64,000 nucleotides of DNA from Synechococcus sp. KORDI-49 (GTDB lineage Bacteria; Cyanobacteriota; Cyanobacteriia; PCC-6307; Cyanobiaceae): contig NZ_CP006270.1 in the NCBI RefSeq assembly GCF_000737575.1, forward strand, positions 2,297,163 to 2,361,162, written 5' to 3'. The translations under genes and the position numbers were made by a program. The notes below the pieces were generated by a model that made no database searches, was not told the origin of the DNA, and saw nothing but the letters and a program-made list of their open reading frames with translations. Shown one piece after another: positions 3,373 to 35,357 of this stretch (positions are counted from its first letter, which is position 1; every line of letters begins with the position of its first letter).

Positions 3373-3403
3373 GTTGGTGCGCACCTGAGACTTCGTACGA
3401 CCC

Positions 3404-3763: not shown

Positions 3764-3765
3764 TC

Positions 3766-7638: not shown

Positions 7639-7642
7639 GGCA

Positions 7643-15806: not shown

Positions 15807-17297
15807 ATGCCACCGCTGCAGATCGTCTGGTTCAAGCGTGATCTGCGCATCGATGATCACCGGCCCTTGCTGGCTGCTGCGGAGCGGGGTCCGGTGCTTC
15901 CGCTCTACATCGTCGAGCCGGAGCTTTGGCAGCAGCCCGATGCCTCCGAACGCCAGTGGCTCTTTTGCAGGGAGGCGCTGCTGGAGTTGCGCCGTGCCCT
16001 CGCCGATCTGGGGCAGCCGTTGGTGGTGCGCACAGGCGATGTGGTGCAGGTGCTGGAGCGGGCTCGGCGACAGTTCGGTATCGATGGCCTCTGGAGCCAT
16101 GAGGAAACAGGCAACGGCTGGACCTATCAGCGCGACAAACGGGTGGGGCTGTGGGTCCGACAGAACGGAATTGAGTGGATCGAAATTCCCCAGTTCGGGG
16201 TGACGCGCCGGATGCGCACCCGCAATGGCTGGGCCAAGCGCTGGGAGGCTCAGATGACGGAGCCCTTGACGTCTCCGCCTGCAGGGCTCCCCGTCTTGGA
16301 GGGGATGGATCCCGGGGTGATCCCGGAGCGGCCCTGCCCTGAGCTGCCGCTTGATCACTGTCCGCAGCGGCAGACCGGTGGGCGCTCGATCGGCCTGGGG
16401 GAGTTGCGCGATTTTCTGCAACACCGTGCACCGCGCTATCAACGGGCCATGTCGAGCCCCAATACGGCGTTCACCGGCTGTTCACGTCTGTCGGCCTATC
16501 TCACCTGGGGATGCCTGTCGATGCGGGAGGTCCTGCAGACCAGCCGCAAGCACAGTGGTCGCGGTGTCAGCAGCTTTGAATCGCGGCTCCACTGGCACTG
16601 CCATTTCATTCAGAAGCTGGAGGATCAGCCGACGATTGAATTCAGCGACTTCCACCCCTTCATGCGTGGCATTCGCCATGCCGACAGCGATCGACTGACG
16701 GCCTGGAGCGAAGGCCGCACCGGCGTACCGTTCGTGGATGCCTGCATGCGGGCGCTCCGGGCCCATGGCTGGATCAACTTCCGCATGCGGGCCATGTTGA
16801 TGTCTTTCGCCAGCTACCACCTCTGGCTCCCCTGGCAGGAGAGCGGCATGCATCTGGCCCGTCAGTTCGTCGACTACGAACCCGGCATTCACTGGAGTCA
16901 GTGCCAGATGCAATCAGGAAGCACCTCGATCAACACGATCCGCATCTACAACCCGATCAAGCAGGGGCGGGACCATGACGCCAATGGTGTGTTCATCAGG
17001 CGGTGGTGCCCGGAACTCGCTGATGTCCCGAGCGACCATATTCATGAGCCATGGACATTCCTGGCAGGCCATCCTGCGCCAATCGTGGATTGCACGGCGG
17101 CAGCTCGTGAGGCAAAAGAGCGGATCTGGACGATCCGTCGTTCTGCCGGCTTCGATCGGCACGCCGATGACATCCAAAGCAGACATGGATCCCGTAAGGC
17201 AGGCCTGAAACCGACGATGAGCGCCCAGAGAGCTCACCGCCGGCGACGGCGCCTCCCTGATGATGCGTCGATGCAGCAGCTGACTCTTGAGCTCTAA
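15807..17297 (+). CDS. Cryptochrome/DNA photolyase family protein
   Basis: 496 residues. The N-terminal alpha/beta antenna-chromophore domain begins PPLQIVWFKRDLRIDDHRPLL. The C-terminal FAD-binding helical domain has SPNTAFTGCSRLSAYLTWGCLSMREVL, RLHWHCHFIQKLEDQP, GWINFRMRAMLMSFASYHLW and QSGSTSINTIRIYNP. The HCHFIQKLE variant in place of the usual W-R-E/D-F-Y segment puts it in a cyanobacterial/proteobacterial branch whose repair activity I cannot predict. The basic C-terminal tail (SAQRAHRRRRRL) may help DNA binding. Its TAA stop overlaps the stop of the giant gene, which faces it. Confidence 0.9.
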   Translation: MPPLQIVWFKRDLRIDDHRPLLAAAERGPVLPLYIVEPELWQQPDASERQWLFCREALLELRRALADLGQPLVVRTGDVVQVLERARRQFGIDGLWSHEETGNGWTYQRDKRVGLWVRQNGIEWIEIPQFGVTRRMRTRNGWAKRWEAQMTEPLTSPPAGLPVLEGMDPGVIPERPCPELPLDHCPQRQTGGRSIGLGELRDFLQHRAPRYQRAMSSPNTAFTGCSRLSAYLTWGCLSMREVLQTSRKHSGRGVSSFESRLHWHCHFIQKLEDQPTIEFSDFHPFMRGIRHADSDRLTAWSEGRTGVPFVDACMRALRAHGWINFRMRAMLMSFASYHLWLPWQESGMHLARQFVDYEPGIHWSQCQMQSGSTSINTIRIYNPIKQGRDHDANGVFIRRWCPELADVPSDHIHEPWTFLAGHPAPIVDCTAAAREAKERIWTIRRSAGFDRHADDIQSRHGSRKAGLKPTMSAQRAHRRRRRLPDDASMQQLTLEL

Positions 17298-20200
17298 ATC
17301 GATTCCAAGGTCGAGAGTTCTGATGTGATGGACTGGCCAGGGAAAGTTCCTGCCGTGAAACGCATGAACAGCTCGACATCCGTTATGTCCAGGCTGCCGG
17401 GATTGGTGTTGGTCACGCTGACGTTGTAGACGTCGGTCATGTCGTAATCGCCGTTGTCCACACTTGCATCGATGTGGTCGATCATGTCGCTGGAAGTGGT
17501 GCGGCTGCCGACATAGGAGGCAAGTTCACTCATGATTGGATCCTGGGAGACCCGACCGGTGATGAATCGGCGTGCCAGAGCCAGGCCATCGGTGAGCGTC
17601 GTCAGCTGATCATCAGCGTCGATATCTTTCGGTCCCAGCGATACGAGGCTGTCATCCGATAGATCGGAATCGTCCGTCTGCTGGTCATCTGTTGTGCTTC
17701 CAGACTCGCTCCCGGAGGACTCGCCAACGACCGCATCAAAGTCGACATCTCGACTGACGAGAGCCAGGCCACCAGGGCTGGTGATCTCACCGTTCACCAG
17801 GCCGTCATCATCACCACGGGCACCATCACGGACATACAGGGCCAGAACATCCGCACCGCGCTGGCTTGGATCGGTGTCCTCCAGCAAGGCTCCGGTTCCC
17901 GTCACCTCGTCGTAGGTGTAGATGAAGGGATCAGCATTGGCTGGTCTGCGGTACCAGACCAGACTCTGAGAACCCTCCTCCAGTTGGGCACGGATTTCAT
18001 CACTGAGATCAATTTCGATGCGCTGCAAGCCCAGATCAAGAATGTCTTCATCATCAAGATCGCTTTCCACGGCAATCGATTGGTCAGACTCCTGCATCAC
18101 CAGTGATTGACGTTTAGCCAGGAAGCCCGAGAGGGTACCCCGTCCTCGACCAACCCGAAGATCAACAGGTTTGGAAATTGGCTTGAGATCATCAACCTCA
18201 TCAGCGGTTGCATCAGCAAGGGAGGCAATATCCTTGGCAGTGAATTCACGGCTTGAATTCACTTGACGCAATTCTCCAGACTGATTGGCGGCAAGTTCCG
18301 CTTTGTTGGTTTCATTCACTTTGCCTGAAATGTTTTCCGGCGTCTGCTTCTTCATCAAGATCGGTGTCGATCCAGTTTCTCCACTACCTGTTTTCAACGT
18401 TGATTTGATGATCAGAGGATTGCCGGAGAGTTCCTCGCCTTTTTCACCAAGATCTTTCTCAAGTTTTGCCTTTGTTGATTTCAATTCGTCGTCGGTTGCT
18501 TCCGGCAAGGCTGCCAGATCGGCGAGATCATCTTTCGTGATCTTGACAAGATCCTTCAGGTTTGAGGCATCGCCAAAATAGGATTCGAAGATGTCGGAGT
18601 GGGAAGCGATATTCTTTGTGGCCTCCAGAAGGGCGTTCTCCAACGTGTCATGAGACTTGATCAGGAGTGAATAGGAGGTGGGTTGATGGTTGTGGCTATG
18701 GAGATTGGCAATGAAGTTGTAAACCTTGTTCTGTTCGAATCTGTCATCACTCGAAAGGTCGATCACAACTGTTTCGTCAGATGGAGTGAAGACCCCGGTC
18801 TCCGCATCCTCTGTTCCCCAGTTCCAGCTTCCTTCATGCCATCCAGGTTCTTGATGGTCCACAAGAAGACTGACATCGCTGAGCTGGCTGAAGTCAGTTG
18901 CCCGGACAGTGTAAATCTCCCCACCAGTCAATTTCATTGACCAATAATCTTCTGTGTCTAAGGAATTGAGCTTCCCTTGTGAGGCCATTCCATTGATCGC
19001 CAATGACCCACTTGGGTCGTTGGAGGTGTCTTGGTCGGTTTCCAGCGTTATGGTTGTATCGAGTATGTATTCAACGTCAATATCTCCTGAATTGCCTGAA
19101 GAGAAGTATTCGATTGTGTAGAGGCCCTTGGGAAGATATTGCTCACTTTTACCGTCGTAACTGTTTCCCCACCACTGACCGTTGAGGTCAAATATTTCAA
19201 ACCAAACTTCACTTGAAACATTGTCATAATCAAGAATTGCAAGAGTGAATATTCCATCAGAGTTAATCGCAATTGTCTCGTCGGCATATTGATCGCTCAG
19301 GTTCAGAGTGTTGTTCCTGATGGAGAAGGATTCTTCATCATTGCCACCGATTTGAATGGCATCAAGAGCCTCGGAATCAAAGGCTGTTGTTTCGATTGTG
19401 AGTTGATACGGTTGCTGGATCTCTTCGTCGAGACTTGCATGTTCAATGATCAAGCGGTAATCACCTTCGGGAAGAGTGAAAACAACGTTTCGTTCATCAT
19501 TGCTTGGAGAATCTTTCCATGAATCCAGTGCAGAATTATGTGATCCACCGATGTAGTTGGTGAAGCGAGGTGTAATGTTCTCGACAAAGAAATCCAGGTT
19601 GGCGTCGCCTTCATCATCCAGAGTCCGTCCGCCTTGATCAGTCAAGCTGAAACTAACGTTGGAGATCTCGTCGAGATGGAAGTTGTAATGGTCAGCGATC
19701 TGGAAGTCAGAGTGCTTTGACGAAAGGGAACCATTATCATTCATATAACTATTGCTGCTCGAGAGGTTGTTGCCAGTTTGTTTGAAGACAACATTGACAC
19801 TGTCAATGTTGTTAAACCAAGTGTCTGGATTGTTGATGTCAAATTCGACAGAAAAATTGTTAATGGCAAGATTTCTGATCGAGGTTGCATTGCCTAATCC
19901 ATCGGTTAAGGCTGTGCCGAGGTAGCTGAGAGAAACCTCATCATTTGCTTGAACAGAGGATTCCAGTTGTAATTCAAGATCTCCCCACTCGTTCATCCGA
20001 ATGCTGTTGGCACTGATGGATCGTCGGTCGTCGTTGACGCCGGCTGTGATCAGGAAATTGATGGGGTTGGGAAGGTTGGTTGTCGTGAGACTTTTCCCAT
20101 TGACATGAACTTCTGCAGGGTCATCCAGACCCATGTAGAGACGATTACCGTGAACATCGGCCCAGCGCACAGAAGGCCCCTCTTCGTCAGGCGAAATATT

Positions 20201-23200
20201 CTCGATGGGATGCCAATGAAAACTATGGCTTGTCGCACCATTGACATTTGTGAATGGCTCGCTGTTTGAAGAGCCATCGGCAAGTGTTGAAATGATGGGG
20301 TCATATGTAACATCAATATTCACACCCGACGGAACCTTATTCGACAGGTCAAAGATCAATTTTTTTCCTTTGACCTCGATCGTGCTTTCAGCAAATTGAA
20401 GCTGAGTCTGCTCTCCACTTTGAGGATTCCAGGACCAGAATTGGAAGTCGCTTATTTCTGGAATAACTGCTTTTGTAGAGTCGTCAGTGAGATCAGCCTT
20501 GGAGTGAAAAGATAAGGTTGCTTTCTTGCCTTCAACAAAACTTTCGTCTGGATTCAGGGAAATCCACTCGTCAAGATCGTAACCAAACTGCTCATAGCGG
20601 GCCCAGTTATCGATTTTGAGTGGTTCCTTGAGAACAATGGATTCTCCCTCCACATCGCGTAATCCATGACCTTCTTGTAATGCAAAAGTGATCGTCGATT
20701 TTGGCTTGATCGTCAGACCACTGTCATCTTTCAAGCGAAGCTTGAGACGATGTCCCCACTGGATTTCTGTGGAATAAGCTGAGGGATCGACGAGCTTGTC
20801 GTCAATTCTCAGGATGATGTCTCCCTCTTTATAATTAGACTTGCTATCATCATTTGTGATTTCAGCAATTCGGTAAAGACCTTGGTATTCAATATAAATT
20901 GATTTGTTGCTGTCATAATCTTCCCCTGACGGATCAGTGTAGCCCCATTCAAAAGTAGGTTTGATGGAACCTACATTCATGACCCACTCTTCTTCATATG
21001 TTTGCCATGCTTTGTGGTAGCGGTCTTCTGCTTCTCGGAATCGCTCTTCGTTGCTTGGATCGTGAAGAGTCCAAGCCCATAGATCAATCTGTGGCTTGCT
21101 TCCTCCTTGTGGCGCAGTGAAATCTAGATTGGCAGAGACAAGATTACGATGATCATTTCTGACTTGATTTCTGTTCGTTATTTCGAAGATATCATCTGAG
21201 AAGATGGTTTCATTGCTATTAGCCGAGGTCCCAACATTACGAAGCACCTCCAGGATCAGGTCCAGGAAGTCGTTGGCTTCGAGAAATTCATCGTCGCTAT
21301 CAATTTCGATGCCAGCATAGACTTTGGGCTGATAGTTAAGCTCGTCGATGATTCCATCGCGAACTTGATAAAGTTCATCGAAGAAAATATCTTCTCGCTG
21401 TTGCTGACTGAGTTGTCCCTCGCCTGATTGATAGTGAAGATCAAAAATAATGGCATAGTCCCGCCACTCACTCCAGTCATGTGGACCATCAGAATGCGGG
21501 ACTTCCAGGTTGAAGCGCAGGACAACATCATCGCCAATATCAAAATAATCACCTTCTAAATTAATTAGTCTTGGACTGATTCTTTGTTGATCCCAAGCGA
21601 CAAAGGGATTTCCTTCAATCCAAATCTGTGGATGATAGTCTGACCAAAAAGCTTGAACAGGTTCTTCGCTGACTGACAGCCGATTCAGATTGTCACCATA
21701 ACGGTCAACTTTCAGAACGCTAATCTGATCATTTTCCCAAGAGTCCCATTCTCGAAGGCTCACACTGAAGCCATCAGGATCAGAGTCAATAAATTGCCCA
21801 AAGTTGTAACTGTCTTCTTCTCCAAACCAGATGGCGTTATAAATCTGCTCAGTATCTCCGTCCGGTGTTGTGAGCTTCAGGTCAACGATGAATTCATTCA
21901 GGCCGCCTCCTGAGTCATCAGCGGGATGTAAACGTAAGCCAGGGTTTTCAATCTGGTCGGTTGTCGAAGCGTTGTCATTCATGATGTGGGCCTCAAAGAA
22001 ACTCCAGTCATCATCCATTTGTCCAGGGTTCAGGAAGGCATCTGCAGGTAGAACCAACCACTCCGAATCCTCCTCATTGTGTCCCCGTGCTGAATCCCAG
22101 TTGTCATTACCACTGACAACCCATTCTTTTCTCACCAGGGTGCTGTGTTCGGTGGCGTCAACTGTTCCTGCCACATCCCATGGTCCTCGATCGTCAAAAT
22201 TGCCAAGCCAGTCAATGACCGTGTACGACGCCTGATCCCCACGAACCAGTGCAAAGCTGTCGTCACCATCTCCTAGATATTCGAACAAGTGATCAGCTTG
22301 ATCAAGAATTGCAGGTTCTGCACCGGGGTCTGCAATCAAGTAAACATCTCCAGACTCAATTGTTGCACCTTCGGGAAATTCGTTCCAGAATTCATAGACC
22401 CCCCATGTGGTTGTGTTGTTAGATATAGTTGGGAATGCATAATTGTCGAGCTCCACCCTGGATGAAGTGGGGTTGAAAATTTCGATATATTTGTTGGATC
22501 CATAGCCTGTTGTGTATTCTGAGAAGAACAGGCTGGATGCTGTTTCCGAGTTGTCGTCTTGGGGGAATAAGTCATCAAATCTGATCTTGTATGTGGCTCC
22601 TTCTTGAGAGGATCCATTGTCACTCGTGAAGATGAACTCATTGGCGGAGAACGTCATGCCCTCCATGTTTTTGAAGTCTCCACTGATGAAACCCGAATTG
22701 ATACTCTCTCCAGATTCAAGATCAAGAAGTTGAATATATGCCAATCCCTGATTGTTTTTCTCTCCATTAATGACGGCAGATTTCCCATGTAATGCTGCAA
22801 GATATTGAATATCAGACCCATCCCGCGTCACTATTGCCAGATCTCTTAAATCATTGATGCCGGTTTCGATGATCCGCAGCTCAGAGCCAAGAACCCCGTC
22901 TCTGAAATCATATTCATAGATACCTCCTGATTTTTGCTCGCCGACAAGAATAGAATCAGATTCTGAGAGGAATACCAGTGACTCATGTTGATTGTCAGAC
23001 TCTTCAGATGTGTCAGGAATCGTTTCGATTCGGACTATGTCTGATACCCCATTGGTTTCGATGATGTCGCCATTTTCATTGAGACTGAAACTAAAAATCT
23101 TGGATTGTCTGTTGTTGTCAAGATCACCCTCATCCAGAATGTAAAGCGTTGATGAGTTGATGTCATAGGTGATGGCTTCGCCATCGATTGAAACAGACTC

Positions 23201-26200
23201 TCCCTTAAAACTATTTGGTAGGGTGAAATAGGCGGGTGAATGCTTGCCATCTCGATTGATTCTTAATAGCTGCGATGGACTCTCTGAATTGAATTCAGCA
23301 TTGTCATCTACGTCTTGATTTGCCGAGATGGAGTCATCTGAAATGATGTATAAGAAAGAATTACTGTCTTCGGTAATCACGGATGTGATTCCACTGGCTT
23401 CAAAGCCGTAAGGCAAATTAAAATCTGGTTCAATATACAAAGCATCTGCAAGCAATTTGTTTCTATATTGCTGTCCTGAGTGATACCCGGGTCCAGCCTC
23501 AATTGACATGGGTGCTGTGAAATAAGATTCAAAATTATTGGCTGTAGTCGTCGTCGTCAGGTAGGTGGCAGAACTTTCAGACAACCACTGCTTCTCTTCT
23601 GCCAGTAGGGATTGGAGTAGCTCTTCGATTGAATTCAGATTTTCGATCTGATCCAGTTTGATTGTTTCTGACGGAACTTGATTTGGCCCGATCTGTAGAG
23701 AAACGCTAAGGCCATTGTCGGTATTGAATATTGATTCAAAAAGCTCTTTGTCGAAGAAAAGGTGAAGAGATGATTCTCCCTCAAGCTTTTCGATAGGGAT
23801 ATCTTCACTGATCAGATCATCATAAGAAATTCGTAAATCCCAGTTAGAGGGTATCTCTTCGAGGCCAAGATCTTGGGACGTGGACGGATTCAATTCCAGC
23901 CTCAGCTGGTTGTAGCTGGCTTTTGCTGTTGCCAGGTCGAGGGCGGTCCAATGATAAAAATGATCGTTAGCCTGAGCCTCAGGATTTCGGGCTTCAAATT
24001 TGAGATCTTCTGCAACTGCTTCACTCAGGCTGATCAATTCTGTTGTTGATGCATCCCAATCAATCGTGAGATAGTTCTCAACCTCTGCTTCTGCAAGCCG
24101 CAGACCCTCTGGGTTGGAAAAACTGAAATTATCGGAGCGATTTTCAAGATCTGTATCATCAATGGTAATGCTCTCACCAGTTCTCGTGTCGATGAGCCCA
24201 AAAGATGTTGTCTTATTCTTCGTGTTGATGGTGAGCTCTGAAACCTGATAGGGTCTCCACTCATCGATTGAGTATGGCAGTGCATCATGCCAATTAAAAT
24301 CAATCAACATGCCTTCTGAGATTTCAAGCGTCGTACCATTGAGGACGACCTTATTCATATCGACATCGAGATATCCTTCTGAATCTTCTCTTCCCGGGAG
24401 AGTGTATTCGTTGCCGTTCACTCTGACATCGAGCTGAAAGGCATCGTCGTTCCAATGATCTGACAGAGCGCGAGTTTCGTATACAAGCGGACCGATTTCC
24501 AGTGTTTCCGTACTTGATTCTTCAAATTCAAACAGAATCTTCGATCCTTCCGGGATATCGCTACTAAAAAAGCTCAGCGCCACTTCATGCTCTCTCTGCC
24601 AATCGCCCTCTGCTTCGTTGAAGTAAGCATTGGCATCTCTCATTGTAGTTACATTATCCTCCAATACCAAATCATTAGCGTCGACAAGTGAAACATTGCC
24701 CTTGAAATTACCATTATCATCAAAGTGTTCACTCATATCCTCTGACTTGAAGACGATTTCTACAGCTGCCAACTCAGTTGTGTCACGATCAGCTTCTCGT
24801 TGACGTTTGAGTTTTTCGTACTCATTCCAATTCAGCTCCATCCTCTCATTAACGACTGACTCTGCAATCTTCAGGCCAATGCCTCCTTGATTGACGCCAT
24901 TGTTCCAACTCCATCGCTCAAAAATATTGGCGTCAAACATTTGTACATTCCGGTTGTCCTCGGAATCGATTAATTTGAAAGTTGTAATATTGCTGGAGTT
25001 GTCGATTGTCAGATCATCTACACGGTATGGGTGATATGAGCGAATATATTGAGGCAATACTTCGTGCCAGTTGAAATCCATAAGGCTTCCATTGACAATA
25101 TCGTGATCCACGCCAATAAGAACGACTTGGTTGTTGTCAAGATCCAGCCAACCTTCCTGTTCTTCATTGCCGGGAACATTCAATCTCCACTCTTCAGCGG
25201 CGCTGCGAATTCCTAATTGAAACGCGTTCTCAGAACCATGATCTGTCTCCGTAAAGGAATTCAGATGCAAAGGTAGTTCAAGTGGGTTGTCCCAGTGTTG
25301 ATTGGCATCGAGGATGAGCTTGTCTCCATCAGAGATCTCTGACCCCAGAAAAATCTCAAGGCGCTCATGGGTATTTTCCCATGAATCATCTGAGTAATCT
25401 TCATCATTGCGGTAGAAAAAGTCTGATTGGATTAACCCAGCAATCTCATCGTCGATCAGTTGTCCAGATGAATTCACAAGACTGATTGTGCCATCAAATA
25501 CGCCAAACTCGTCGATGATGTTGGATAAATCCTTTGCCTTGAAATTAATCTCAAGTGCTGAAATGCTCGAGGCTTCCTGTTGATCTGATAGCTCATTCTG
25601 CTGCTTTCGGTAGGCGTCTTGGTCAAATTCCAGATACTCTTCTTCGATGGCCTTCCACATCCGCAGGCCATCATTGCTATCAGCAGATTGGTACTGTGTA
25701 ATAGAATCAAGAATATTGTTGCTGGCAAAGCTCACTGCCATCGATTGCTGACGATCAAATAATTTGAATGACGTCTGCTGCAGATCAGGGTTGATTTTGA
25801 GATCGTTAACCTGATAACCCTTGTAGGCCTGCACACTTTCCGGCAGGGTCTCGTGCCAGTCAAATCCAATTAAGTCACCTTCACTCAGCTCATGATCAAT
25901 ACCAGTCAAGACGATTCGATGCGTACCAAAATCAAAATGTCCTTCTTGCTTTTCAGCTCCTTTAATGGAATGAATCGTTTCTTTGAATTTAATATTTAGC
26001 TGGAAGTAATCATCGTTTCCGCTACGATCAACTTCTGTTCTGATGGTGTTGTGGAATGGTAGAAGGAGCTGTTGATTCCAGTGATCACCACCATCAATCA
26101 CAAGGATATCTCCAGCCTCTGCTGAGAAAGGAAGCATGACATGCAAACGTTCGTGCTCCTTGTCCCAATCACTTTGATGATTGTTTGTCCATGAGCTGTA

Positions 26201-29200
26201 GTTGATCAGTGCGGGAAGGTTTTCTGCACGGATGTTATTTTTTTCACGCACCTCAAGGTCACTATTTTGTAATGTGATGCTGCCTGTGAAGCGCCCATTC
26301 GTTACCAGGCCTTCTGCGAACTTTCCATCAAAGACAACCTCCACAATTTTGGCATTGTTCGTCTCTGCATCGGCTTGTAATTTTTGTCCGTCAATTTCGT
26401 AATATGCTCCAGCCGGATCCAGCCGGATCACCTCTTCCTGTTTCGCCTTCCAAAGTCGTAAGCCACTGTCACGATCGCCGGAATTATAGTTTTTGATTGT
26501 TTGGCTGATAGCATCATCACTGAAATCAACGACCTCGCCTTCCTCTTGATCAAATAAGTCAAAGCTGGTTATGTTCGTGTCTTCTTCTGTTTCCAAATTG
26601 ATGATCTGATAAGGCTTGTACTCATCCAGTCCCTGCGGGAGAGTGCTGTGCCAGTCGAACCCAATCAGGTCGTCATTTTGAAAATAATTTTCGATTCCCT
26701 CCAAGATAATTTTTTTATCATCAAGGTCGATGAAGCCTTCTTGCTCTTCTTCGCCTTTGATAGTTAGTACCTCCTGATTTGTTTTGATTCCCAACTGGAT
26801 GTAATCGTTTCTCGTCGAGTAGTCCACTTCGGTTCTCTGCTCGCTGGACAGTGGAAGATTCAGATCCTTTTCCCATTCATCACCACCACTGATTCTTAGA
26901 GTGTCACCAGCCTGCGCCTTTTCAGGCATATAGATGTAAAGACGTTCATTCTCCTGCTCCCAGCTGCTCAGGTTGTCGTCGGTGAATCCGTGCGGATCAA
27001 CGACTGCTTTAAGGTTTTCGGATTTGATTGCTCCTTCAGGATCCAACAGTGAAATGCTTCCTGTGAAACCACCGTTGCTCACCAGGTTGCCGAAGTCTTT
27101 GGCTTTGAAAACGACTTCAATCAAGCTGGTCTTTTCATAGGCGTCTTCTTCTGCTGCTGCATCAGTGGACTGATAGGTGACTCCGTTGTGATCCAGTGCG
27201 ATGTAATGACGCTCTTTCGCCCTCCATATGCGAAGACCATGATCAGAGTCGCCATTCCTATAATCTTCGATTTGCTGTTCAGGATCGTCACTTTCAAACT
27301 CAACCGATTCTTTATGCTTTGGATCGATCAGGCTGATGGTTGTTTCATTCGTGACGTTATTCGTCGTCAATTGCTCGATTTGATAAGCGTAATATGACTC
27401 AATGCTCCATGGGAGAGTCTCATGCCAGTCAAATCCCAGCAGATCGCCCACATTCAGTTCGTGGTCAACTCCGCTGATGATGATCGTATCCTGATCAAAG
27501 TCTAGGTAACCTTCTTCTGCCTCATAACCTTTGATTTCATGTCTTTGCTTATTGATTTTCGCGCCCAGCTGGAAATAATCATTTCTGAATGAGTTGTCTA
27601 CTTCGGCTGTTGTTTCTTCATAGAGTGGTAGTGTCAGGGATTGATTCCACGCATTTTCCGCCCCAATCACTAATGAATCACCATCTGTTGCTTCGATTGG
27701 TATAAAAAGATGAAGGCGGGTGTAGTTGGTTTCCCATTCGTCTTTTGTCTCGTTAATCCATGCATCAGGATGAAGCATGGCCTGAATATTTTCTGCTTTA
27801 GTGGAGCCATCATCACCAATCAATTGGATGGAGCCACTAAATTTGCCGTTCTCGATTACATCATCCAGATTGGGCGCTTCAAATACCACTTCAAGATGGC
27901 TGGTTGGATCCTGTGCAGTTTCAGAAAACTGATCCCCATCCTTCTCATAGATCACAGCTTCATGATCAACCCTCAGGTTGTCCCTCAGTTCTGCTCGCCA
28001 CATTCGTAGACCGCTGTCTCCTTCGTCGGCTTTGTGTTGGTTGATCTTTTGCTGCAGTCTTGTATCGGAGAATAGTAAATCTTCTGATGTCTCGCTATCA
28101 ATTAATCTGAACGTTGTGCGGTTGTAATCCCTATTTATGATCAGTGAGTCAACTCTGTAAGCATGGTGACTTCTGATGCTTTCGGGAAGTGTTTCATGCC
28201 AGTAGAAGCCAATCAGATCACCATTTTCTAGATTGTGGTCTGTCCCATCGAGCACGATCTGCTGTTGATTAAAGTCAATGAGGCCTTCCTCCTCTTCGTC
28301 TCCATTGATTTCATATCGATTCTTTCCCGATAGGATTCCTAGTTGAAAGTACTGATTGTCATCAGAGTGATCAACTTCAGTAGATGTCTCCATGTAGAGC
28401 GGCAACTGCATCGAATAGGTCCAGTCGTTGTCGCCATCCATCACGAGAACATCTCCATCCTCTGCCTTGCCAGGGAGAAGAACATGCAAAATTTCGTATG
28501 ATTGCTCCCAATCGCTGTTCTCTCCCCGTAACGCCTCAGGTGAGATCAGGCCTGTCAGGTTGGTCTGCTTTGCATTGCCATTTTTATCCAGGAGCGAGAG
28601 ATCACCCTGGAAGATGCCATTCTCTACCAGGTCGCCCAGATCTTGTCCTTCAAATGTGACTTCGAGCACGCTTGTTTCGACATCAGAAATGTCACTGTTG
28701 AAGAACGTGTCGAGTGATGTTGACGTGTAAGTCGTCTGTGGATCAACTGTGTTCGCCAGATCGATGAAGCTGTTGTAGTAATTGTCAAGGATTTCCGAGG
28801 TGGCACCATTCTGTTCCAGATTCGAAAGCCACCCATGGAGATCGTCAACATCGCGTTCCCCGATCCATCCAAAGTCTGTTCCTCGTCCATCAAGACCTGG
28901 TTTGAAGAAAAGTCTGAAGTCGTCGAGGTTGTATGTTTCGTTGTCGCTTGCTTGATTAGCCAGATCAACAAATGCCTGTTCGTAGATTTCAACAATCGTT
29001 TCGTCAACTTCGTTGTCGTGAAGATGCTCAATCCACCAAAGTGAATCCTTTCCGCTCCCCTGGGTGTTGAGCCATCCCAGCTTGGTTCCTTCGCCGTCAA
29101 GTCCTGGAGAGAAAAATTGCTCGTAGTTGTCGTTATTAAAGGTTCTATCCGTCTGTGCGTTGTTGGCAGTGTCTGTTAGTGCATTTCTGTAGGTATCGAC

Positions 29201-30016
29201 AATCTCACTGCTGACACCATTGTTTTCGAGATGCTCGACCCACCACAGTGTGTGTTCAAGATCACCACCTGCATTGATCCGGCTGAAGTCCGTCCCTTTT
29301 CCGTCAAGTCCAGGGTTGAAGAACTGCCGAAAATCTTCGGTTGAGTATGATCGATTGAGGTCGGACAGGTTGGCGAGATCAATATAGGCAGATGTATAAG
29401 CATCAATGACATCCTGCTCTACTTCGTTGTCTTCAAGGTGGTTGATCCACCAGACAATTTCGTTGAGATCACGATTGGTGCTGCCGATGTATTCAAAATC
29501 GTTCCCTCTGCTATCGAGTCCTGGTCTGAAGAAGGATTGATAGTTCTCCGATGAGTAATCAGAGCTGTTGGTGGCATTGTTGGCCACATCGGCCAGGCTT
29601 GATTTGTATTGCTCGATGATGTCTTCTGTGACTAAGCCGTTGCCAAGGTTGTTTTCGAGATCATCAATGATATGCAGACGGTCTTTGGCTTCATTGCTCC
29701 ACAACCAATCGAAATCGGTTCCCTGGCCATCGAGCCCTGGTTGAAAGAACGTTTCGTAGTTTGTACTGTCATAGTCAATTGATTCAGACGCTTTATTGGC
29801 GACGTCGACAAATGCCCCGATGTAGCTGTTGAGAATGTCTGATTCGACTCCGATGTTTCGAAGTTGATTGATCCACCATAATTTGTCTTGCAGCGAGGTG
29901 TGGTGGATCTGCTCAAATGCCGGAAGATTGTTGACGTATTCTTTTTGAATATCGCCACTCAGATATGCTTCGAAAATGGTTCCATAGGCTTCAAGTGAGT
30001 GAATGGTTGAGCCCAT
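17294..30016 (-). CDS. Giant modular repeat protein, probably secreted or cell-surface
   Basis: About 4,240 residues, strongly acidic, with no cysteine that I could find. Modules in order: about 40-440, tandem repeats with WWI...PGLDGxGTDF; about 445-2005, six copies of a roughly 258-residue repeat; about 2165-2480, a possible beta-propeller (esterase-like phytase type); about 2490-2670, a lamin-tail-like domain (FFSEYTTGYGSNKYIEIFNP); about 3025-3395, SwmB-type/Ig-like domains; about 3410-3790, PPC-like beta domains; a charged linker; an acidic region (DGARGDDDGLVNGE); and a dockerin-like segment (IDADDQLTTLTDGLALARRF). There is no Sec signal peptide, so export by a type I system is inferred. 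The start at MGSTIHSL is favoured because a TATAAT box sits just upstream; an in-frame ATG at 30055 is possible. The AT-rich body suggests acquisition. Function unknown. Confidence 0.9.
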   Translation of the reverse strand: MGSTIHSLEAYGTIFEAYLSGDIQKEYVNNLPAFEQIHHTSLQDKLWWINQLRNIGVESDILNSYIGAFVDVANKASESIDYDSTNYETFFQPGLDGQGTDFDWLWSNEAKDRLHIIDDLENNLGNGLVTEDIIEQYKSSLADVANNATNSSDYSSENYQSFFRPGLDSRGNDFEYIGSTNRDLNEIVWWINHLEDNEVEQDVIDAYTSAYIDLANLSDLNRSYSTEDFRQFFNPGLDGKGTDFSRINAGGDLEHTLWWVEHLENNGVSSEIVDTYRNALTDTANNAQTDRTFNNDNYEQFFSPGLDGEGTKLGWLNTQGSGKDSLWWIEHLHDNEVDETIVEIYEQAFVDLANQASDNETYNLDDFRLFFKPGLDGRGTDFGWIGERDVDDLHGWLSNLEQNGATSEILDNYYNSFIDLANTVDPQTTYTSTSLDTFFNSDISDVETSVLEVTFEGQDLGDLVENGIFQGDLSLLDKNGNAKQTNLTGLISPEALRGENSDWEQSYEILHVLLPGKAEDGDVLVMDGDNDWTYSMQLPLYMETSTEVDHSDDNQYFQLGILSGKNRYEINGDEEEEGLIDFNQQQIVLDGTDHNLENGDLIGFYWHETLPESIRSHHAYRVDSLIINRDYNRTTFRLIDSETSEDLLFSDTRLQQKINQHKADEGDSGLRMWRAELRDNLRVDHEAVIYEKDGDQFSETAQDPTSHLEVVFEAPNLDDVIENGKFSGSIQLIGDDGSTKAENIQAMLHPDAWINETKDEWETNYTRLHLFIPIEATDGDSLVIGAENAWNQSLTLPLYEETTAEVDNSFRNDYFQLGAKINKQRHEIKGYEAEEGYLDFDQDTIIISGVDHELNVGDLLGFDWHETLPWSIESYYAYQIEQLTTNNVTNETTISLIDPKHKESVEFESDDPEQQIEDYRNGDSDHGLRIWRAKERHYIALDHNGVTYQSTDAAAEEDAYEKTSLIEVVFKAKDFGNLVSNGGFTGSISLLDPEGAIKSENLKAVVDPHGFTDDNLSSWEQENERLYIYMPEKAQAGDTLRISGGDEWEKDLNLPLSSEQRTEVDYSTRNDYIQLGIKTNQEVLTIKGEEEQEGFIDLDDKKIILEGIENYFQNDDLIGFDWHSTLPQGLDEYKPYQIINLETEEDTNITSFDLFDQEEGEVVDFSDDAISQTIKNYNSGDRDSGLRLWKAKQEEVIRLDPAGAYYEIDGQKLQADAETNNAKIVEVVFDGKFAEGLVTNGRFTGSITLQNSDLEVREKNNIRAENLPALINYSSWTNNHQSDWDKEHERLHVMLPFSAEAGDILVIDGGDHWNQQLLLPFHNTIRTEVDRSGNDDYFQLNIKFKETIHSIKGAEKQEGHFDFGTHRIVLTGIDHELSEGDLIGFDWHETLPESVQAYKGYQVNDLKINPDLQQTSFKLFDRQQSMAVSFASNNILDSITQYQSADSNDGLRMWKAIEEEYLEFDQDAYRKQQNELSDQQEASSISALEINFKAKDLSNIIDEFGVFDGTISLVNSSGQLIDDEIAGLIQSDFFYRNDEDYSDDSWENTHERLEIFLGSEISDGDKLILDANQHWDNPLELPLHLNSFTETDHGSENAFQLGIRSAAEEWRLNVPGNEEQEGWLDLDNNQVVLIGVDHDIVNGSLMDFNWHEVLPQYIRSYHPYRVDDLTIDNSSNITTFKLIDSEDNRNVQMFDANIFERWSWNNGVNQGGIGLKIAESVVNERMELNWNEYEKLKRQREADRDTTELAAVEIVFKSEDMSEHFDDNGNFKGNVSLVDANDLVLEDNVTTMRDANAYFNEAEGDWQREHEVALSFFSSDIPEGSKILFEFEESSTETLEIGPLVYETRALSDHWNDDAFQLDVRVNGNEYTLPGREDSEGYLDVDMNKVVLNGTTLEISEGMLIDFNWHDALPYSIDEWRPYQVSELTINTKNKTTSFGLIDTRTGESITIDDTDLENRSDNFSFSNPEGLRLAEAEVENYLTIDWDASTTELISLSEAVAEDLKFEARNPEAQANDHFYHWTALDLATAKASYNQLRLELNPSTSQDLGLEEIPSNWDLRISYDDLISEDIPIEKLEGESSLHLFFDKELFESIFNTDNGLSVSLQIGPNQVPSETIKLDQIENLNSIEELLQSLLAEEKQWLSESSATYLTTTTTANNFESYFTAPMSIEAGPGYHSGQQYRNKLLADALYIEPDFNLPYGFEASGITSVITEDSNSFLYIISDDSISANQDVDDNAEFNSESPSQLLRINRDGKHSPAYFTLPNSFKGESVSIDGEAITYDINSSTLYILDEGDLDNNRQSKIFSFSLNENGDIIETNGVSDIVRIETIPDTSEESDNQHESLVFLSESDSILVGEQKSGGIYEYDFRDGVLGSELRIIETGINDLRDLAIVTRDGSDIQYLAALHGKSAVINGEKNNQGLAYIQLLDLESGESINSGFISGDFKNMEGMTFSANEFIFTSDNGSSQEGATYKIRFDDLFPQDDNSETASSLFFSEYTTGYGSNKYIEIFNPTSSRVELDNYAFPTISNNTTTWGVYEFWNEFPEGATIESGDVYLIADPGAEPAILDQADHLFEYLGDGDDSFALVRGDQASYTVIDWLGNFDDRGPWDVAGTVDATEHSTLVRKEWVVSGNDNWDSARGHNEEDSEWLVLPADAFLNPGQMDDDWSFFEAHIMNDNASTTDQIENPGLRLHPADDSGGGLNEFIVDLKLTTPDGDTEQIYNAIWFGEEDSYNFGQFIDSDPDGFSVSLREWDSWENDQISVLKVDRYGDNLNRLSVSEEPVQAFWSDYHPQIWIEGNPFVAWDQQRISPRLINLEGDYFDIGDDVVLRFNLEVPHSDGPHDWSEWRDYAIIFDLHYQSGEGQLSQQQREDIFFDELYQVRDGIIDELNYQPKVYAGIEIDSDDEFLEANDFLDLILEVLRNVGTSANSNETIFSDDIFEITNRNQVRNDHRNLVSANLDFTAPQGGSKPQIDLWAWTLHDPSNEERFREAEDRYHKAWQTYEEEWVMNVGSIKPTFEWGYTDPSGEDYDSNKSIYIEYQGLYRIAEITNDDSKSNYKEGDIILRIDDKLVDPSAYSTEIQWGHRLKLRLKDDSGLTIKPKSTITFALQEGHGLRDVEGESIVLKEPLKIDNWARYEQFGYDLDEWISLNPDESFVEGKKATLSFHSKADLTDDSTKAVIPEISDFQFWSWNPQSGEQTQLQFAESTIEVKGKKLIFDLSNKVPSGVNIDVTYDPIISTLADGSSNSEPFTNVNGATSHSFHWHPIENISPDEEGPSVRWADVHGNRLYMGLDDPAEVHVNGKSLTTTNLPNPINFLITAGVNDDRRSISANSIRMNEWGDLELQLESSVQANDEVSLSYLGTALTDGLGNATSIRNLAINNFSVEFDINNPDTWFNNIDSVNVVFKQTGNNLSSSNSYMNDNGSLSSKHSDFQIADHYNFHLDEISNVSFSLTDQGGRTLDDEGDANLDFFVENITPRFTNYIGGSHNSALDSWKDSPSNDERNVVFTLPEGDYRLIIEHASLDEEIQQPYQLTIETTAFDSEALDAIQIGGNDEESFSIRNNTLNLSDQYADETIAINSDGIFTLAILDYDNVSSEVWFEIFDLNGQWWGNSYDGKSEQYLPKGLYTIEYFSSGNSGDIDVEYILDTTITLETDQDTSNDPSGSLAINGMASQGKLNSLDTEDYWSMKLTGGEIYTVRATDFSQLSDVSLLVDHQEPGWHEGSWNWGTEDAETGVFTPSDETVVIDLSSDDRFEQNKVYNFIANLHSHNHQPTSYSLLIKSHDTLENALLEATKNIASHSDIFESYFGDASNLKDLVKITKDDLADLAALPEATDDELKSTKAKLEKDLGEKGEELSGNPLIIKSTLKTGSGETGSTPILMKKQTPENISGKVNETNKAELAANQSGELRQVNSSREFTAKDIASLADATADEVDDLKPISKPVDLRVGRGRGTLSGFLAKRQSLVMQESDQSIAVESDLDDEDILDLGLQRIEIDLSDEIRAQLEEGSQSLVWYRRPANADPFIYTYDEVTGTGALLEDTDPSQRGADVLALYVRDGARGDDDGLVNGEITSPGGLALVSRDVDFDAVVGESSGSESGSTTDDQQTDDSDLSDDSLVSLGPKDIDADDQLTTLTDGLALARRFITGRVSQDPIMSELASYVGSRTTSSDMIDHIDASVDNGDYDMTDVYNVSVTNTNPGSLDITDVELFMRFTAGTFPGQSITSELSTLESI
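24000..28680 (-). repeat. Six ~258-residue tandem protein repeats of the giant gene
   Basis: Copies begin near 28672, 27899, 27127, 26360, 25560 and 24771 (period about 767-800 bp). Each starts LEVVF(K/E)A.DL...V.NG.F.GSI.L, then has W...LPL, D.S..DYFQLGI, EEQEG.IDF....I.L.G.DH.L..GDLIGFDWHETLP, the segment Y..YQV..L....N.T.F.L.D, and GLR(L/M)W.A. I recognise no named domain. Confidence 0.88.
28700..29900 (-). repeat. N-terminal ~70-residue protein repeats of the giant gene (about six units)
   Basis: Units run about 205-220 bp. Each has LWWI.HL..N.V...I...Y..A..DLAN, then Y...F..FF and PGLDGxGTDFxWI. PGLDG/PGLDS occurs five times (around 29730, 29510, 29302, 29098 and 28890); the last unit ends DTFFNSD without it. 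The first helix resembles DUF4214-type segments only loosely. DNA copies are diverged, so these are old protein repeats. Confidence 0.85.
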
Positions 30017-30044
30017 GTGATTTGAAGCACTTACTCTTATTTTT

Positions 30045-30050
30045 ATTATA
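30045..30050 (-). promoter_or_regulatory. Candidate -10 box of the giant gene
   Basis: On the minus strand this reads TATAAT, a perfect sigma-70 -10 hexamer, about 28 bases before the ATG at 30016. I see no good -35 at the right spacing. Its position favours translation starting at 30016 rather than 30055. Confidence 0.45.
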
Positions 30051-30144
30051 AGCATTTCGTTTCAACGGCACCACTCGCATCGGCTTTGCGTGATGCCTCA
30101 AGATTGGAGCCTGTTGGAATTGTGCTCGACAGGCTTGTTGTCGT

Positions 30145-30177
30145 GCAAAGCAAGCTTTGTCAAAAAGCTTGCTTTGC
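30145..30177 (-). terminator. Strong hairpin after the geranylgeranyl-reductase-like gene
   Basis: GCAAAGCAAGCTTT (30145-30158) and AAAGCTTGCTTTGC (30164-30177) form a perfect 14-bp stem with a 5-base loop. It starts 12 bases past the stop at 30189 and lies before the giant gene's promoter region. No T-run follows on the minus strand, so it may terminate, protect the 3' end, or be a repeat element. Confidence 0.55.
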
Positions 30178-30188
30178 TTCGCATCGGC

Positions 30189-31334
30189 TCAGCGGCGATC
30201 CAGGAGCAGTCGTCGAATCACGCGTTGGGCGATGTCGCCGTACCCCATTTCGCCGGAGAGGATCTGGGCGATCCGTCTCGGCGCTGTAGGCCGTTTGATG
30301 CCCAGTTGGTACCCAACACCCGGGAACCGGTAGAAGACCTGGGCAATCCTCCGGCCCCAGGCCATGGATTCTCCCCAGCGCACGCGCATCGCCTGGCTGT
30401 AGCCCTTCAGGTTCTGTTGTTCCCCCTTCAGCCATCCATCCAAGTGACGGGCCGCTTCGCATCCGCTCATCAGGGCTGGGCGCAGGCCTTCGGCCAGGAA
30501 GGGATCGCACAGCGAAGCCGCATCTCCCACGACCACCACGCCATCACCATCGAGGCAGTGGTGCCCGTTCCACACCCGAAGCTGCCCTCTCTGACGGATG
30601 CCGGCATCCTGTTCGAATCCCAGATCGGGCAGCAGTCGGCTCAGCACGGCATCGGGGTCGGCATCCTGCCTTCCCACAAAGCTGCCGACACCGATGTTCA
30701 CCCCGCCTGCCAGAGGGAAGGCCCAGGCAAATCCCTGCTTCACGAGACCGAATTCAAAACGGGTCGTGCCGTTCTGCAGCGTTCCCTGGCCTTCCAACCT
30801 CACCGACATGGTGCTCGCTGTCTGCACCTGACGGGCTCCGAGACCCAGTTGCTGCGGCCATGGCGATCCTGATCCGTCGGCGATCACCAGAGCCCGGCTG
30901 CGCCAGCTGCGCCCGTCGTCTGCTTTCACCTCCCAGGTGTCCTCCGCTTTCCTCACTTCACTGACGTTCACCGTCAGAGACCGTTCTCCACCGGATCGGA
31001 TGGCCTGCTCCGCCAGCAGCTCATCCAGCCGTTCCCGCCGCACGATCCAGAAGGGTGCCTCTCCGGGAAGCTCGGCGACGACAGGGTCCTCCAGGCACCA
31101 GCTGAAATCGACCCGTCGGATGACCTGTTCCACGGCAGGTTCCAGGGAGAAAGGGAACCATTGCTGAACAGCAGCAGCCATGCCGCCGCCGCAGGGCTTG
31201 ATGCGCCGATGCGCATCTTTCTCAAGAGTGAGGACATCGTGCCCGGCTGCGGCCAGATGGGCTGCAGCGGCTCCACCGGCTGCACCGGACCCGATGATCA
31301 GGACATCACGGATCCGCCTGTCGGATCGGCTCAC
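30189..31334 (-). CDS. Geranylgeranyl-reductase-family FAD oxidoreductase
   Basis: 381 residues. The N-terminal dinucleotide-binding motif [31 protein letters not shown] binds FAD. CGGGM follows, as in the ChlP/GGR family, then a second FAD motif [26 protein letters not shown]. Family members reduce the double bonds of geranylgeranyl chains or act as other halogenase-like flavoenzymes. The protein looks shorter and more divergent than chlorophyll ChlP, so the substrate is open. The GTG start overlaps the frr stop (GTGA), indicating translational coupling with pyrH-frr. Confidence 0.85.
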
Positions 31335-34211: not shown

Positions 34212-35357
34212 TCAAGCGTGTTGCCGGGCCAGGGCCGCATCCACCGCCTGCTGCTGGTCGCGGCGGGTGATCCAGTGGTGATAGGTGCGGGTGTGAATGG
34301 CCACCGAGTGGCCCATCATCCTGGCGGCGACGGTGTCCGGCAGGCCGATGTGGATCGTGCGCACCGCCCAGGCATGCCGCAGGTCGTAGGGGGTGATCGG
34401 CAGTTGATAACGGCGGAACTGTTCGCTCACACGGCGGCCCACCTGCTGGAGCGTTGTGCGCCGCAGATCCGTGCAGATCGCGGGCAGTGCGTCAGAGGTG
34501 TCACCCAGCTGTCGCAGCCCGAAGCGTTCCACCCAGTCCGGCTGAAAGGGCCATACCTGGTGTTCGCCGGTCTTTGTGGTGGGCAGCACCCGGATCACCT
34601 GATCGCCCCCCTCTGCCAGCGGGCTGAGGTCAGAGAAGAACACTTCATGGTTCCGCAGGCCGTAGGTGGCCATCAGTCCGTAGGCCAGCCGCCAGCGTGG
34701 GTTTGGGATGCGCAGGACCCCCTCGAGGATCTGAGCGTCCGTGGGTAAGCGCCGGAACCGGGCCTGATGCAGGCCATACCCGGCAGCCTCCTGGCGCCAG
34801 TCCTGGGGCAGATCGATCATCAGATGGGCTGCCAGGGCGGCCAGTGCCGTGGCGCATTGCTGTCGACTGCGGGTGCCATCCCCGTAGCTGGAGAGGGTTT
34901 CCGTGAGTCGCTGAGCCGTGATGCCTCCGTCACCACAGAGGGGCAGCAGCCTTCTCAGATAGGGGCGATAGGCGCTGGTCCAGGTGGTTCGGCTTCCCGC
35001 CGGAGAACGGCGGCGTCGCGGATCGGCGAAGAAGGCCCGTTCGAAGTCCTCGATGGCGTCGCCGGCTGGGCGACGCGAGCTGCCCTCCACTGAACTGGAG
35101 CGCCAGTCATCCCATCGGAACTGCCCCCGATCCAGTTGTCGCTGAACGATCAGCAGGGTCTGCTCGGCCTCCACCAGTCCCTGACGGTCCGCGCTGAGCC
35201 CGAGGCTGATGCGCTGGATTCTGCTGTCATCCGGATCGTGACGATCCGGTAAGGGACCTCTCAGATTCAGACGTTGTCCCCGTTGCTCCAGTCGCAGGCG
35301 CGTCCCCTGATGCGCCAGGCGCTGATTGAGCTCCTCCAGCGCGCAGCGCAGATCCAT
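34212..35357 (-). CDS. Tyrosine recombinase/integrase-family protein
   Basis: 381 residues. The C-terminal catalytic domain has Arg235 (YGLRNHEV), a possible Lys262 (TTKTGEH), Tyr324-Asp-Leu-Arg327-His (where the usual first His is Tyr), His350 (MMGHS) and candidate nucleophile Tyr359 (TRTYHHW). The N-terminal half is Arg-rich and helical, like a core-binding domain. There are no phage genes, att-like repeats or tRNA beside it. It sits in a run with a methyltransferase and cobO and is divergent from hemH, so it looks like a resident chromosomal gene rather than an active mobile element. Confidence 0.88.

Follow-up and report, generated by a model that had tools for sequence, protein, structure and literature searches.

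The 64,000 nucleotide stretch of Synechococcus sp. KORDI-49 that was analysed (the window) carries a giant open reading frame, the middle of which is made up of six tandem copies of a repeat unit that, on the sequence searches made, belongs to no family in the libraries searched. The unit is predicted to consist of an Ig-like sandwich followed by a small beta-barrel. The frame spans the entire repeat region in 4,253 codons (12,762 bp with the stop), with an array of ~70-aa repeats before the six copies and ~2,200 residues after them. Met14 (30016) appears a likelier start than the first ATG when the N-termini of both paralogues (described below) are used for comparison. The parts of the frame outside the six-copy array are as follows.

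17294..30055, minus strand: giant open frame of 4,253 aa, a single ORF counted from the first ATG
28670..29941 (aa 39-462), minus strand: six N-terminal repeats of 68-76 aa, consensus FFxPGLDGxGTDF, upstream of the six-copy array
21986..23242 (~aa 2272-2690), minus strand: segment without aligned counterpart in either paralogue, a gap between aligned blocks
22208-22549, minus strand: Lamin Tail Domain within that segment (PF00932, 34.5 bits, cut-off 34.3)
17312..21205 (aa 2951-4248), minus strand: C-terminal scaffold, common to paralogues 2 and 3
20300..20542 (aa 3172-3252), minus strand: SWM_repeat-like stretch below cut-off (16.6 bits, cut-off 27)
17762..17923 (aa 4045-4098), minus strand: Choice-of-anchor-U-like stretch below cut-off (NF041766, 23.9 bits, cut-off 32)
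17297..17674, minus strand: C-terminal tail of Asp-rich loops with GTFPG, which recurs on same-genome proteins otherwise unlike the giant

The six copies, of 257-265 residues each, lie head to tail, each starting at the higher of its two coordinates and the sixth ending near 23969.

27896..28666 (aa 464-720), minus strand: repeat copy 1, by copy alignment and sequence search
27122..27895 (aa 721-978), minus strand: repeat copy 2, by copy alignment and sequence search
26345..27121 (aa 979-1237), minus strand: repeat copy 3, by copy alignment and sequence search
25556..26344 (aa 1238-1500), minus strand: repeat copy 4, by copy alignment and sequence search
24764..25555 (aa 1501-1764), minus strand: repeat copy 5, by copy alignment and sequence search
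23969..24763 (aa 1765-2029), minus strand: repeat copy 6, which groups with the single copy of a paralogue

An earlier note on this DNA had described six diverged tandem copies, and these were recovered in one ORF; the period of 767-800 bp that it gave is refined to start spacings of 771, 774, 777, 789 and 792 bp, with a sixth copy 795 bp long. Its order of motifs was found as a consensus, but the spacing from W to LPL is five residues and not two. The His that it considered conserved, and perhaps structural or metal-binding, is present in all seven copies of the unit (one lies elsewhere in the genome) and the preceding Trp in six of the seven, with Glu in the paralogue's copy. Copy 2 alone as a query retrieved the rest of the array at E 5e-65, 2.8e-60, 2e-59, 2e-36 and 3.5e-34, and therefore a chance or low-complexity repeat was ruled out; the seventh copy was found by the same query at E 4.4e-16. 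Identity to copy 1 among the array copies is 30-43%, as is protein identity between adjacent copies, and 31 columns are identical across all six. A recent duplication was also ruled out, as only 44.5-51.9% of bases are common to adjacent copies. The linkers between copies are poorly conserved (15.5%). Mean pairwise identity over the six copies is 37.9% in the barrel half vs 32.6% in the Ig half, and invariant positions in all seven copies number 19/138 and 8/97 respectively, those kept in the barrel including the charged positions E124, E127, D131 and H157. This stronger conservation of the barrel may have a purely structural cause.

The predicted structure of copy 1, for which the remaining copies served as the alignment, is compact and bore out the beta-rich fold that had been proposed. 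It does not agree with a single module, as the unit was instead predicted to form two domains, an Ig-like sandwich (residues 1-97) and a small barrel (98-235), and paralogue 3 has the first without the second. The model of the whole copy gave a pLDDT of 80.2 and a pTM of 0.66, and that of the barrel half alone 84.4 and 0.80. The term Ig-like refers to the strand pattern and to weak structural alignments within the whole-copy model, in which residues ~1-97 align weakly to S-layer, Bap and pullulanase domains (Z 3.8-4.2); lipoxygenase chains in the same list align over residues 1-248 (Z 3.8-4.2). The barrel halves were located as follows.

27962..28375 (module residues 98-235), minus strand: barrel half of copy 1, by alignment, model and absence from paralogue 3
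27188-27604, minus strand: barrel half of copy 2, by alignment
26411-26827, minus strand: barrel half of copy 3, by alignment
25634-26032, minus strand: barrel half of copy 4, by alignment
24842-25237, minus strand: barrel half of copy 5, by alignment
24056-24454, minus strand: barrel half of copy 6, by alignment

The suggestion that the module is undescribed was upheld by the family searches. No match above cut-off was found in Pfam, NCBIfam or PHROGs, the best Pfam E value for a single copy being 0.048, under cut-off, and the module and barrel-half alignments found nothing among PDB sequences at E <= 10. DUF3006, DUF6565, PRC_RimM, KOW2_Spt5 and similar candidates were all under cut-off and differed from copy to copy. 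Foldseek against PDB and viral models returned nothing at E <= 0.001, a result to be read in the light of the fact that absence from structural match lists rules out no fold. Copy 2 was searched against 50,697 phage and 72,556 plasmid records without a match, so a known phage or plasmid gene was rejected, and the scaffold likewise matched none of them. Scanning of genome contigs with the module alignment, on one peptide pattern, gave 25 pattern matches and no relative; viral-contig scans with two alignments (A1 and A3), each on one or two peptide patterns, gave no relative. The same type of genome scan with the scaffold produced, among the matches listed, only a Bacteroidota MAG (28% over query residues 1019-1154), and this match falls around the anchor-like stretch.

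Two paralogues are encoded elsewhere in the same genome. Paralogue 2 (2,727 aa) carries one full unit, while paralogue 3 (1,789 aa) carries the Ig-like half and the domain downstream but lacks the barrel; the Ig-like half is thus present in all three proteins and is followed by the barrel in two. Ten residues of paralogue 3 are placed by the aligner within the barrel gap, and the absence may represent loss rather than gain in the others. Over the scaffold, identity to the giant is 44-45% for paralogue 2 and 36-37% for paralogue 3. In the tree of the units, copy 6 and the unit of paralogue 2 split from copies 1-5 (support 100/98, starred), and copy 5 then separates from copies 1-4 (support 93/94, not starred); one of four inner branches is starred, the paralogue 2 branch is long (1.87) and the midpoint root is for drawing only. 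The first of these splits suggests that the array probably grew outward, away from the shared C-terminal scaffold, and as one paralogue has a single unit and the other the Ig half only, likely steps in this growth can be read.

The giant gene occupies a site that is empty in 16/16 relatives, in which the flanking genes lie tail to tail, 5-68 bp apart (16 were examined of 27 usable).

17298..30188, no strand assigned: 12.9-kb single-gene insert of low GC, by the empty site in 16/16 relatives and GC contrast
15807..17297, plus strand: left flank, DNA photolyase
30189..31334, minus strand: right flank, FAD-dependent oxidoreductase

With a GC of 0.458 the gene lies below its flanks (0.63-0.645). 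Among overlapping sets of 34 genus, 300 family and 386 phylum genomes, the unit was found in no genome but its own; unit and scaffold each occur in 1/34 genus genomes, and the Ig and barrel unit is absent from the other genus genomes searched, including nine with SWM repeats. The anchor-like stretch is more widespread, being found also in long frames of at least 36 of the 399 other family genomes searched, and most matches of the family-wide scaffold search fall on this stretch (11 loci read; two candidates were scored per genome, and the genome's own paralogue 3 is missing from the rows). Giant ORFs of deviant composition and uneven distribution are described as a class in marine Synechococcus in parts of PMC2441476 and PMC4949707, the former giving a size range of 5,016-84,534 bp, within which the window gene of 12,762 bp falls. 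The gene resembles this class in its deviating composition (GC here, tetranucleotides in the relevant part of PMC2441476) and in its very uneven strain distribution. It is also repeat-rich with predicted Ig-like domains, as are giant exoproteins described in parts of PMC2441476, PMC4949707 and PMC9387257; those named there carry cadherin-like, VCBS/bacterial Ig, RTX/haemolysin, peptidase or flagellar-like domains, whereas the window repeat is a pair of Ig-like domain and barrel which has no name in the libraries searched. The protein therefore fits the described class of strain-specific marine Synechococcus giant proteins.

The giant protein contains no cysteine in 4,253 residues and has 824 acidic against 283 basic residues. 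Lack of cysteine and an acidic excess are compatible with an extracellular marine protein, and the giant is probably extracellular, at the cell surface. The chances appear about even that it is a surface-anchored giant in which an Ig stalk and multivalent barrels form an adhesive or shielding coat. In such an arrangement the protein would be anchored to the cell surface through its C-terminal part, with the SWM-like and anchor-like stretches and the Asp-rich tail; the Ig-like halves would form the stalk and the barrels, at regular spacing along it, would present a multivalent contact surface, probably to a glycan or a surface partner; the pair would have been copied in tandem to six, probably outward from the scaffold. 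We infer export, surface location, ligand binding and a role towards grazers, phages or other cells. Against a surface coat, no signal peptide is evident by eye on the giant and GGxGxD (the RTX nonapeptide) occurs 0 times in it and once in each of the two paralogues, unlike the arrays of RTX and type I secreted proteins. Similarly, the SWM-like and anchor-like stretches are under curated cut-offs; all three paralogues have a match to choice-of-anchor U (NF041766) close to the C-terminus, but at 23.9, 25.9 and 25.8 bits, all under 32.

It is possible, though we think it unlikely, that the units are passive spacers which lengthen the stalk and hold the N-terminal repeats off the cell, neither half binding. 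These repeats are probably helical, as judged by eye, the consensus being degenerate in the sixth, and no Pfam family matched them above its cut-off. Adjacent copies have drifted to an extent that length-setting repeats may, and the poorly conserved linkers are in keeping with spacing. However, a second domain is unnecessary for spacing, and it is the barrel that is the better conserved half, with its four charged positions kept throughout.

A separate reading concerns origin and is not exclusive of the functional ones: that the host surface protein took over its barrel from a phage tail protein, the barrel being of the phage-spike or E1 'FCCH' type. Both models align best with the FCCH region of ubiquitin-E1 chains (Z 5.5 over 75 residues, rmsd 3.0; Z 5.2 over 78, rmsd 3.2), and the same lists contain phage endosialidases, a capsule lyase and phage tail tubes; however, Z ~5 is a level that the tool calls common, Foldseek found nothing significant, and the window barrel model has a helix (module 204-210) and loops before its last strand, unlike the E1 FCCH (PF16190) or phage endosialidase barrel. 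HHalign of the barrel half against 31 TGTLPAGL..YYV phage peptides aligned a similar order of motifs, H-x-L-x-x-G-D...LP...Y-x-V, at E 0.0015 (all 31), 0.0033 (16-row group) and 0.012 (15-row group), as compared with 0.082, 0.12 and 0.63 for the Ig half against the same sets and 0.089-0.86 for ten column shuffles against the 16-row group; a second profile comparison with 19/31 peptides gave E 0.0033 at 9.8% probability. Yet the HHalign probability was 3-17%, and the phage set was picked by a motif of which LP..Y.V is common to the query; with this motif masked, E was 0.0077 (31) and 0.089 (16-row group), the latter no better than the best shuffle. The HMMER phage profile matched the giant at 0.0051 in a two-protein search, with a best stretch of 0.058 in the barrel of copy 3, its best stretch on paralogue 2 fell outside the barrel, and the barrel profile's best phage match was E 0.036. 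PF16190 was matched by no single copy up to E 10 (HMMER filters drop most above 0.1), nowhere in the own genome at E <= 0.001 (its control matched in 1/14 genomes), in none of 59 class genomes and in none of the 8/31 phage peptides scanned, and a profile of 19 phage peptides found no solved barrel. A phage origin appears doubtful, and the resemblance may be taken as a weak lead rather than as membership.

That the protein is a secreted enzyme or effector against neighbouring cells, with the repeats as targeting modules, is improbable. A Lamin Tail Domain often accompanies extracellular enzymes, and the one here, in the segment aa 2272-2690, is found in the giant only among the paralogues; but no enzyme family reaches cut-off in the three, a putative-peptidase model on the N-terminal repeats of the giant (E 0.0013) and an aldose-epimerase model on paralogue 2 (E 0.022) being under it, and the fragment aa 2230-2500 scanned alone matches nothing. 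A motility protein of the SwmB type (Synechococcus WH8102) is the least credible reading, since despite the giant size, the marine Synechococcus-like genome and an SWM_repeat-like stretch that two paralogues carry at an equivalent position, SWM_repeat (PF13753) scores 16.6 bits in the giant and 16.9 in paralogue 2 (1658-1739) against a cut-off of 27 and is absent from the own genome at E <= 0.001 (9/34 genus genomes have it), and the protein does not reach half the length of SwmB, given as 10,791 aa in a part of PMC4949707.

In marine Synechococcus, giant proteins are believed to govern encounters with grazers, phages and other bacteria, and they seldom resemble one another across strains. The class is known; the Ig-like and barrel repeat unit is absent from the libraries searched. 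One genome holds three forms, the Ig-like half alone, the pair once and the pair six times, relatives retain the empty site, and the unit is compact (~240 residues) and expressible on its own, and therefore how such a giant surface protein grew, and what its repeat does, can be tested directly. We tentatively propose that the barrel may be a new ligand-binding domain family behind an Ig-like strut, acquired and amplified six-fold by a single cyanobacterial lineage, and that it gives a one-gene 'surface identity' island, inserted between two housekeeping genes, its multivalent contact surface; if true, barrel copy number and sequence would set which grazers, phages and partners engage the cell.

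The six tandem copies described in the earlier note proved to be real, and a single open frame on the minus strand, 4,253 codons long (the giant), contains all of them. The KORDI-49 genome is a single contig of 2,585,813 bases. The layout of the frame, in window positions, is as follows.

17294–30055, minus strand: giant open frame, 4,253 codons
28670–29941: second tandem array, preceding the six-copy array; six repeats of 68–76 aa, consensus FFxPGLDGxGTDF, degenerate in the sixth
28666, 27895, 27121, 26344, 25555 and 24763, minus strand: starts of copies 1–6, the sixth ending at ~23969
17297–17674: C-terminal tail with Asp-rich loops and GTFPG

The copies are 257–265 residues in length, share 30–43% identity with copy 1 and have 31 columns identical in all six when aligned. 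Copy 2 as sole query recovered the other five with E values of 5e-65 to 3.5e-34, and the repeat is therefore far beyond chance. The shorter FFxPGLDGxGTDF repeats are probably helical and matched none of Pfam's families above its cut-off. Downstream of the six copies are ~2,200 residues with other domains; a Lamin Tail Domain was detected C-terminal to the array (34.5 bits, Pfam cut-off 34.3).

The earlier note recognized no known domain in the repeat, and the unit was indeed absent from the libraries searched. A Pfam scan of the whole giant and of every single copy placed no copy above cut-off (best E 0.048), NCBIfam and PHROGs gave nothing for the copies, and profiles of the whole unit and of its second half matched no PDB sequence at E ≤ 10.

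Structure prediction was performed on copy 1 only, with the other five copies as the alignment, and AlphaFold2 returned a model in which strands predominate (pLDDT 80.2, pTM 0.66); the second half alone, predicted with seven sequences, gave pLDDT 84.4 and pTM 0.80. The proposal of a beta-rich module is upheld by the strands, but not as a single module, as the unit is predicted to comprise two domains, Ig-like (residues 1–97) and then a small barrel (98–235). In structural alignment of the copy 1 model many rows spanned either ~1–97 (S-layer Sap, Bap and pullulanase domains, Z 3.8–4.2) or ~103–227 (small barrels of E1 enzymes, phage endosialidases and a capsule lyase, Z ≤ 5.5), and some rows, of lipoxygenases (Z 3.8–4.2), covered both halves. 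With the barrel model alone E1 chains ranked first (Z 5.2, 78 residues, rmsd 3.2), and the first catalytic cysteine half-domain of mouse, as an isolated domain, scored Z 4.7 (88 residues). Further rows were of phage tail tubes, endosialidases and GH110 enzymes. The guide of the tool states that Z < 8 may reflect just a common arrangement, and Foldseek found no match at E ≤ 0.001.

Many phage tail proteins contain a barrel in which the motifs run H-G-L-x-x-G-D...TGTLPAGL...YYV. Viral contigs scanned for such a pattern yielded at least 120 stretches; among the matches listed, 113 were of adequate length and 31 were left after thinning to <80% identity. HHalign aligned the barrel half with the phage peptides in the same motif order at E 0.0015 (all 31), 0.0033 (a 16-row subgroup) and 0.012 (a 15-row subgroup); the Ig-like half against the same sets gave E 0.082, 0.12 and 0.63, and ten column shuffles, compared with the 16-row group only, E 0.089–0.86. 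A second run of this type against 19 of the 31 peptides gave E 0.0033 with a probability of 9.8%. Other results speak against the lead. Masking of the selecting motif reduced the match to E 0.0077 (31 rows) and 0.089 (16 rows), the latter not better than the best shuffle. By HMMER, the phage profile matched the giant at E 0.0051 in a two-protein search (top stretch 0.058), its top stretch in paralogue 2 fell outside the barrel, and the barrel profile matched the phage peptides at E 0.036 at best. PF16190 (E1 FCCH) was found in none of eight phage peptides scanned from the set of 31, was not among the matches of single copies and was absent from the KORDI-49 genome at E ≤ 0.001; a profile of 19 phage peptides matched no solved barrel. 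Kinship with phage-spike or E1 FCCH barrels is retained as a lead only.

Two further frames of the same genome are paralogous to the giant.

C1:1515705–1523888 (706–8889 of locus L019): paralogue 2, 2,727-aa frame, holding one further unit
C1:1208–6577 (1208–6577 of locus L018): paralogue 3, 1,789-aa frame, with the scaffold

A C-terminal scaffold of 1,298 aa is common to all three (44% and 37% identity of the giant to paralogues 2 and 3 respectively), and giant residues ~2272–2690 align to neither paralogue. In the three-way alignment paralogue 3 parallels the others along the Ig-like half, lacks the barrel, with ten residues placed by the aligner inside the gap, and rejoins at the next domain. 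Its Ig-like half is in register but weak (profile 22.1 bits, E 9.5e-5; BLASTP E 1.9e-7 with paralogue 2, 0.006 with the giant). The barrel may have been gained in the giant and paralogue 2 or lost from paralogue 3. In a tree of the seven units the single starred split set copy 6 and the paralogue 2 unit, on a long branch, against copies 1–5 (100/98); unstarred splits separated copy 5 from copies 1–4 (93/94) and paired copies 3 and 4 (87/90), and one inner branch was left open. With the paralogue 2 unit taken as outgroup, the simplest reading is that one ancestral Ig-like and barrel unit beside the scaffold may have been copied outward to six. By eye, paralogue 2 has one FFxPGLDGxGTDF repeat, split by an acidic insert, and paralogue 3 no clear copy. 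GC content was 0.458 in the giant gene (flanks 0.63–0.645), 0.467 in paralogue 2 and 0.62 in paralogue 3; the last is near the 0.60 of the window and the other two are at 0.46–0.47, strong composition differences within one family. A 2,417-aa protein (24–7277 of locus L017) lies approximately 430 bp before paralogue 2. It has Big_12 Ig-like repeats, six in all, and by eye also stretches resembling PPC, cohesin and dockerin domains, none of which Pfam reported.

The Asp-rich, GTFPG tail was located at 13 places in the KORDI-49 genome, including the five from which its profile was made; the 33 other genomes of the genus had no match at E ≤ 0.001. The places other than the giant are:

G000:C1:6221, 6580, 741863, 958131, 1212370, 1523472, 1524918, 2140748, 2378032, 2418071, 2475415 and 2476616

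Carriers include a cyclophilin-type protein, an RCC1-like protein, an 11,299-codon frame and giants, and because it is common to otherwise different proteins the tail suggests a sorting or anchoring element; it may serve as a sorting or dockerin-like tag specific to this lineage. The 11,299-codon frame (C1:2140748 and upstream, locus L211) has a GC of 0.466 over 18 kb and, by eye over the 5,117 codons read, is repeat-rich with a stretch like anchor U.

The unit was present in KORDI-49 alone among 34 genus (E ≤ 1), 300 family (E ≤ 0.001) and 386 phylum genomes (E ≤ 0.01), these sets overlapping. The scaffold as single-protein query matched one of the 34 genus genomes at E ≤ 1e-5, and a three-row scaffold profile matched 37 of 400 family genomes (two candidates scored per genome). 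Beyond KORDI-49 these matches were short and lay in frames reaching 15,071 aa at most; the majority fell in the anchor-like stretch, with some in the tail region and a single one outside both. Of 11 loci inspected, the frame ended within the retrieved flank in eight and continued in three.

The FAD oxidoreductase to the right of the giant is present in 28 of 34 genus genomes, KORDI-49 included. In all 16 neighbourhoods compared, from the 27 other genomes with this gene, it lies tail to tail with photolyase, 5–68 bp separating the aligned ends. The window has 12.9 kb between the two, beginning directly at the photolyase stop, with the giant as sole gene. The interval separating the giant gene from the oxidoreductase contains an exact 11-bp direct repeat, TCGCATCGGCT, at 30075–30085 and 30179–30189 (two occurrences in the window against 0.07 expected), as well as a strong palindrome at 30144–30181. 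Both are a possible trace of insertion; a simple scan found no terminator-like site. A phage-integrase-family gene (34212–35357; 27.9 bits, cut-off 27.1) lies ~4 kb from the insert, and a transaldolase (12672–13844) has EF-hand motifs at its C-terminal end.

Giant ORFs of 5,016–84,534 bp, often deviant in tetranucleotides and unevenly distributed, have been described (Dufresne et al. 2008, PMC2441476), giant exported proteins have been detected that are seldom similar between strains and are regarded as a shield for the cell (PMC4949707, 2015), and four giants are reported to have cadherin-like or RTX repeats (MacKenzie et al. 2022, PMC9387257). The window protein fits this class as these papers describe it, and belongs to a known kind, the giant proteins of marine Synechococcus. 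It is not SwmB, whose gene is located in a genomic island (PMC7522525), because SWM_repeat was under cut-off in the giant and absent from the genome at E ≤ 0.001, though found in 9 of 34 genus genomes at that threshold. In the literature on KORDI-49 giants no publication about the protein was found, as judged by title or start of abstract, and what is new, as far as searched, is the Ig-like and barrel unit, together with the series of paralogues in three forms and the empty insertion site.

The giant lacks cysteine and contains 824 acidic but 283 basic residues. No signal peptide is evident, and GGxGxD repeats are absent. The main rival to a role for the barrels is that the repeat units are a passive spacer. 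Mean identity was 37.9% in the barrel against 32.6% in the Ig-like half, and invariant positions across seven copies numbered 19 of 138 and 8 of 97 respectively; this better conservation counts in favour of a barrel role. We infer that the giant functions as a surface filament, in which the C-terminal tail and scaffold would sit at the cell, the Ig-like halves would act as struts and the barrels would form a repeated contact surface.
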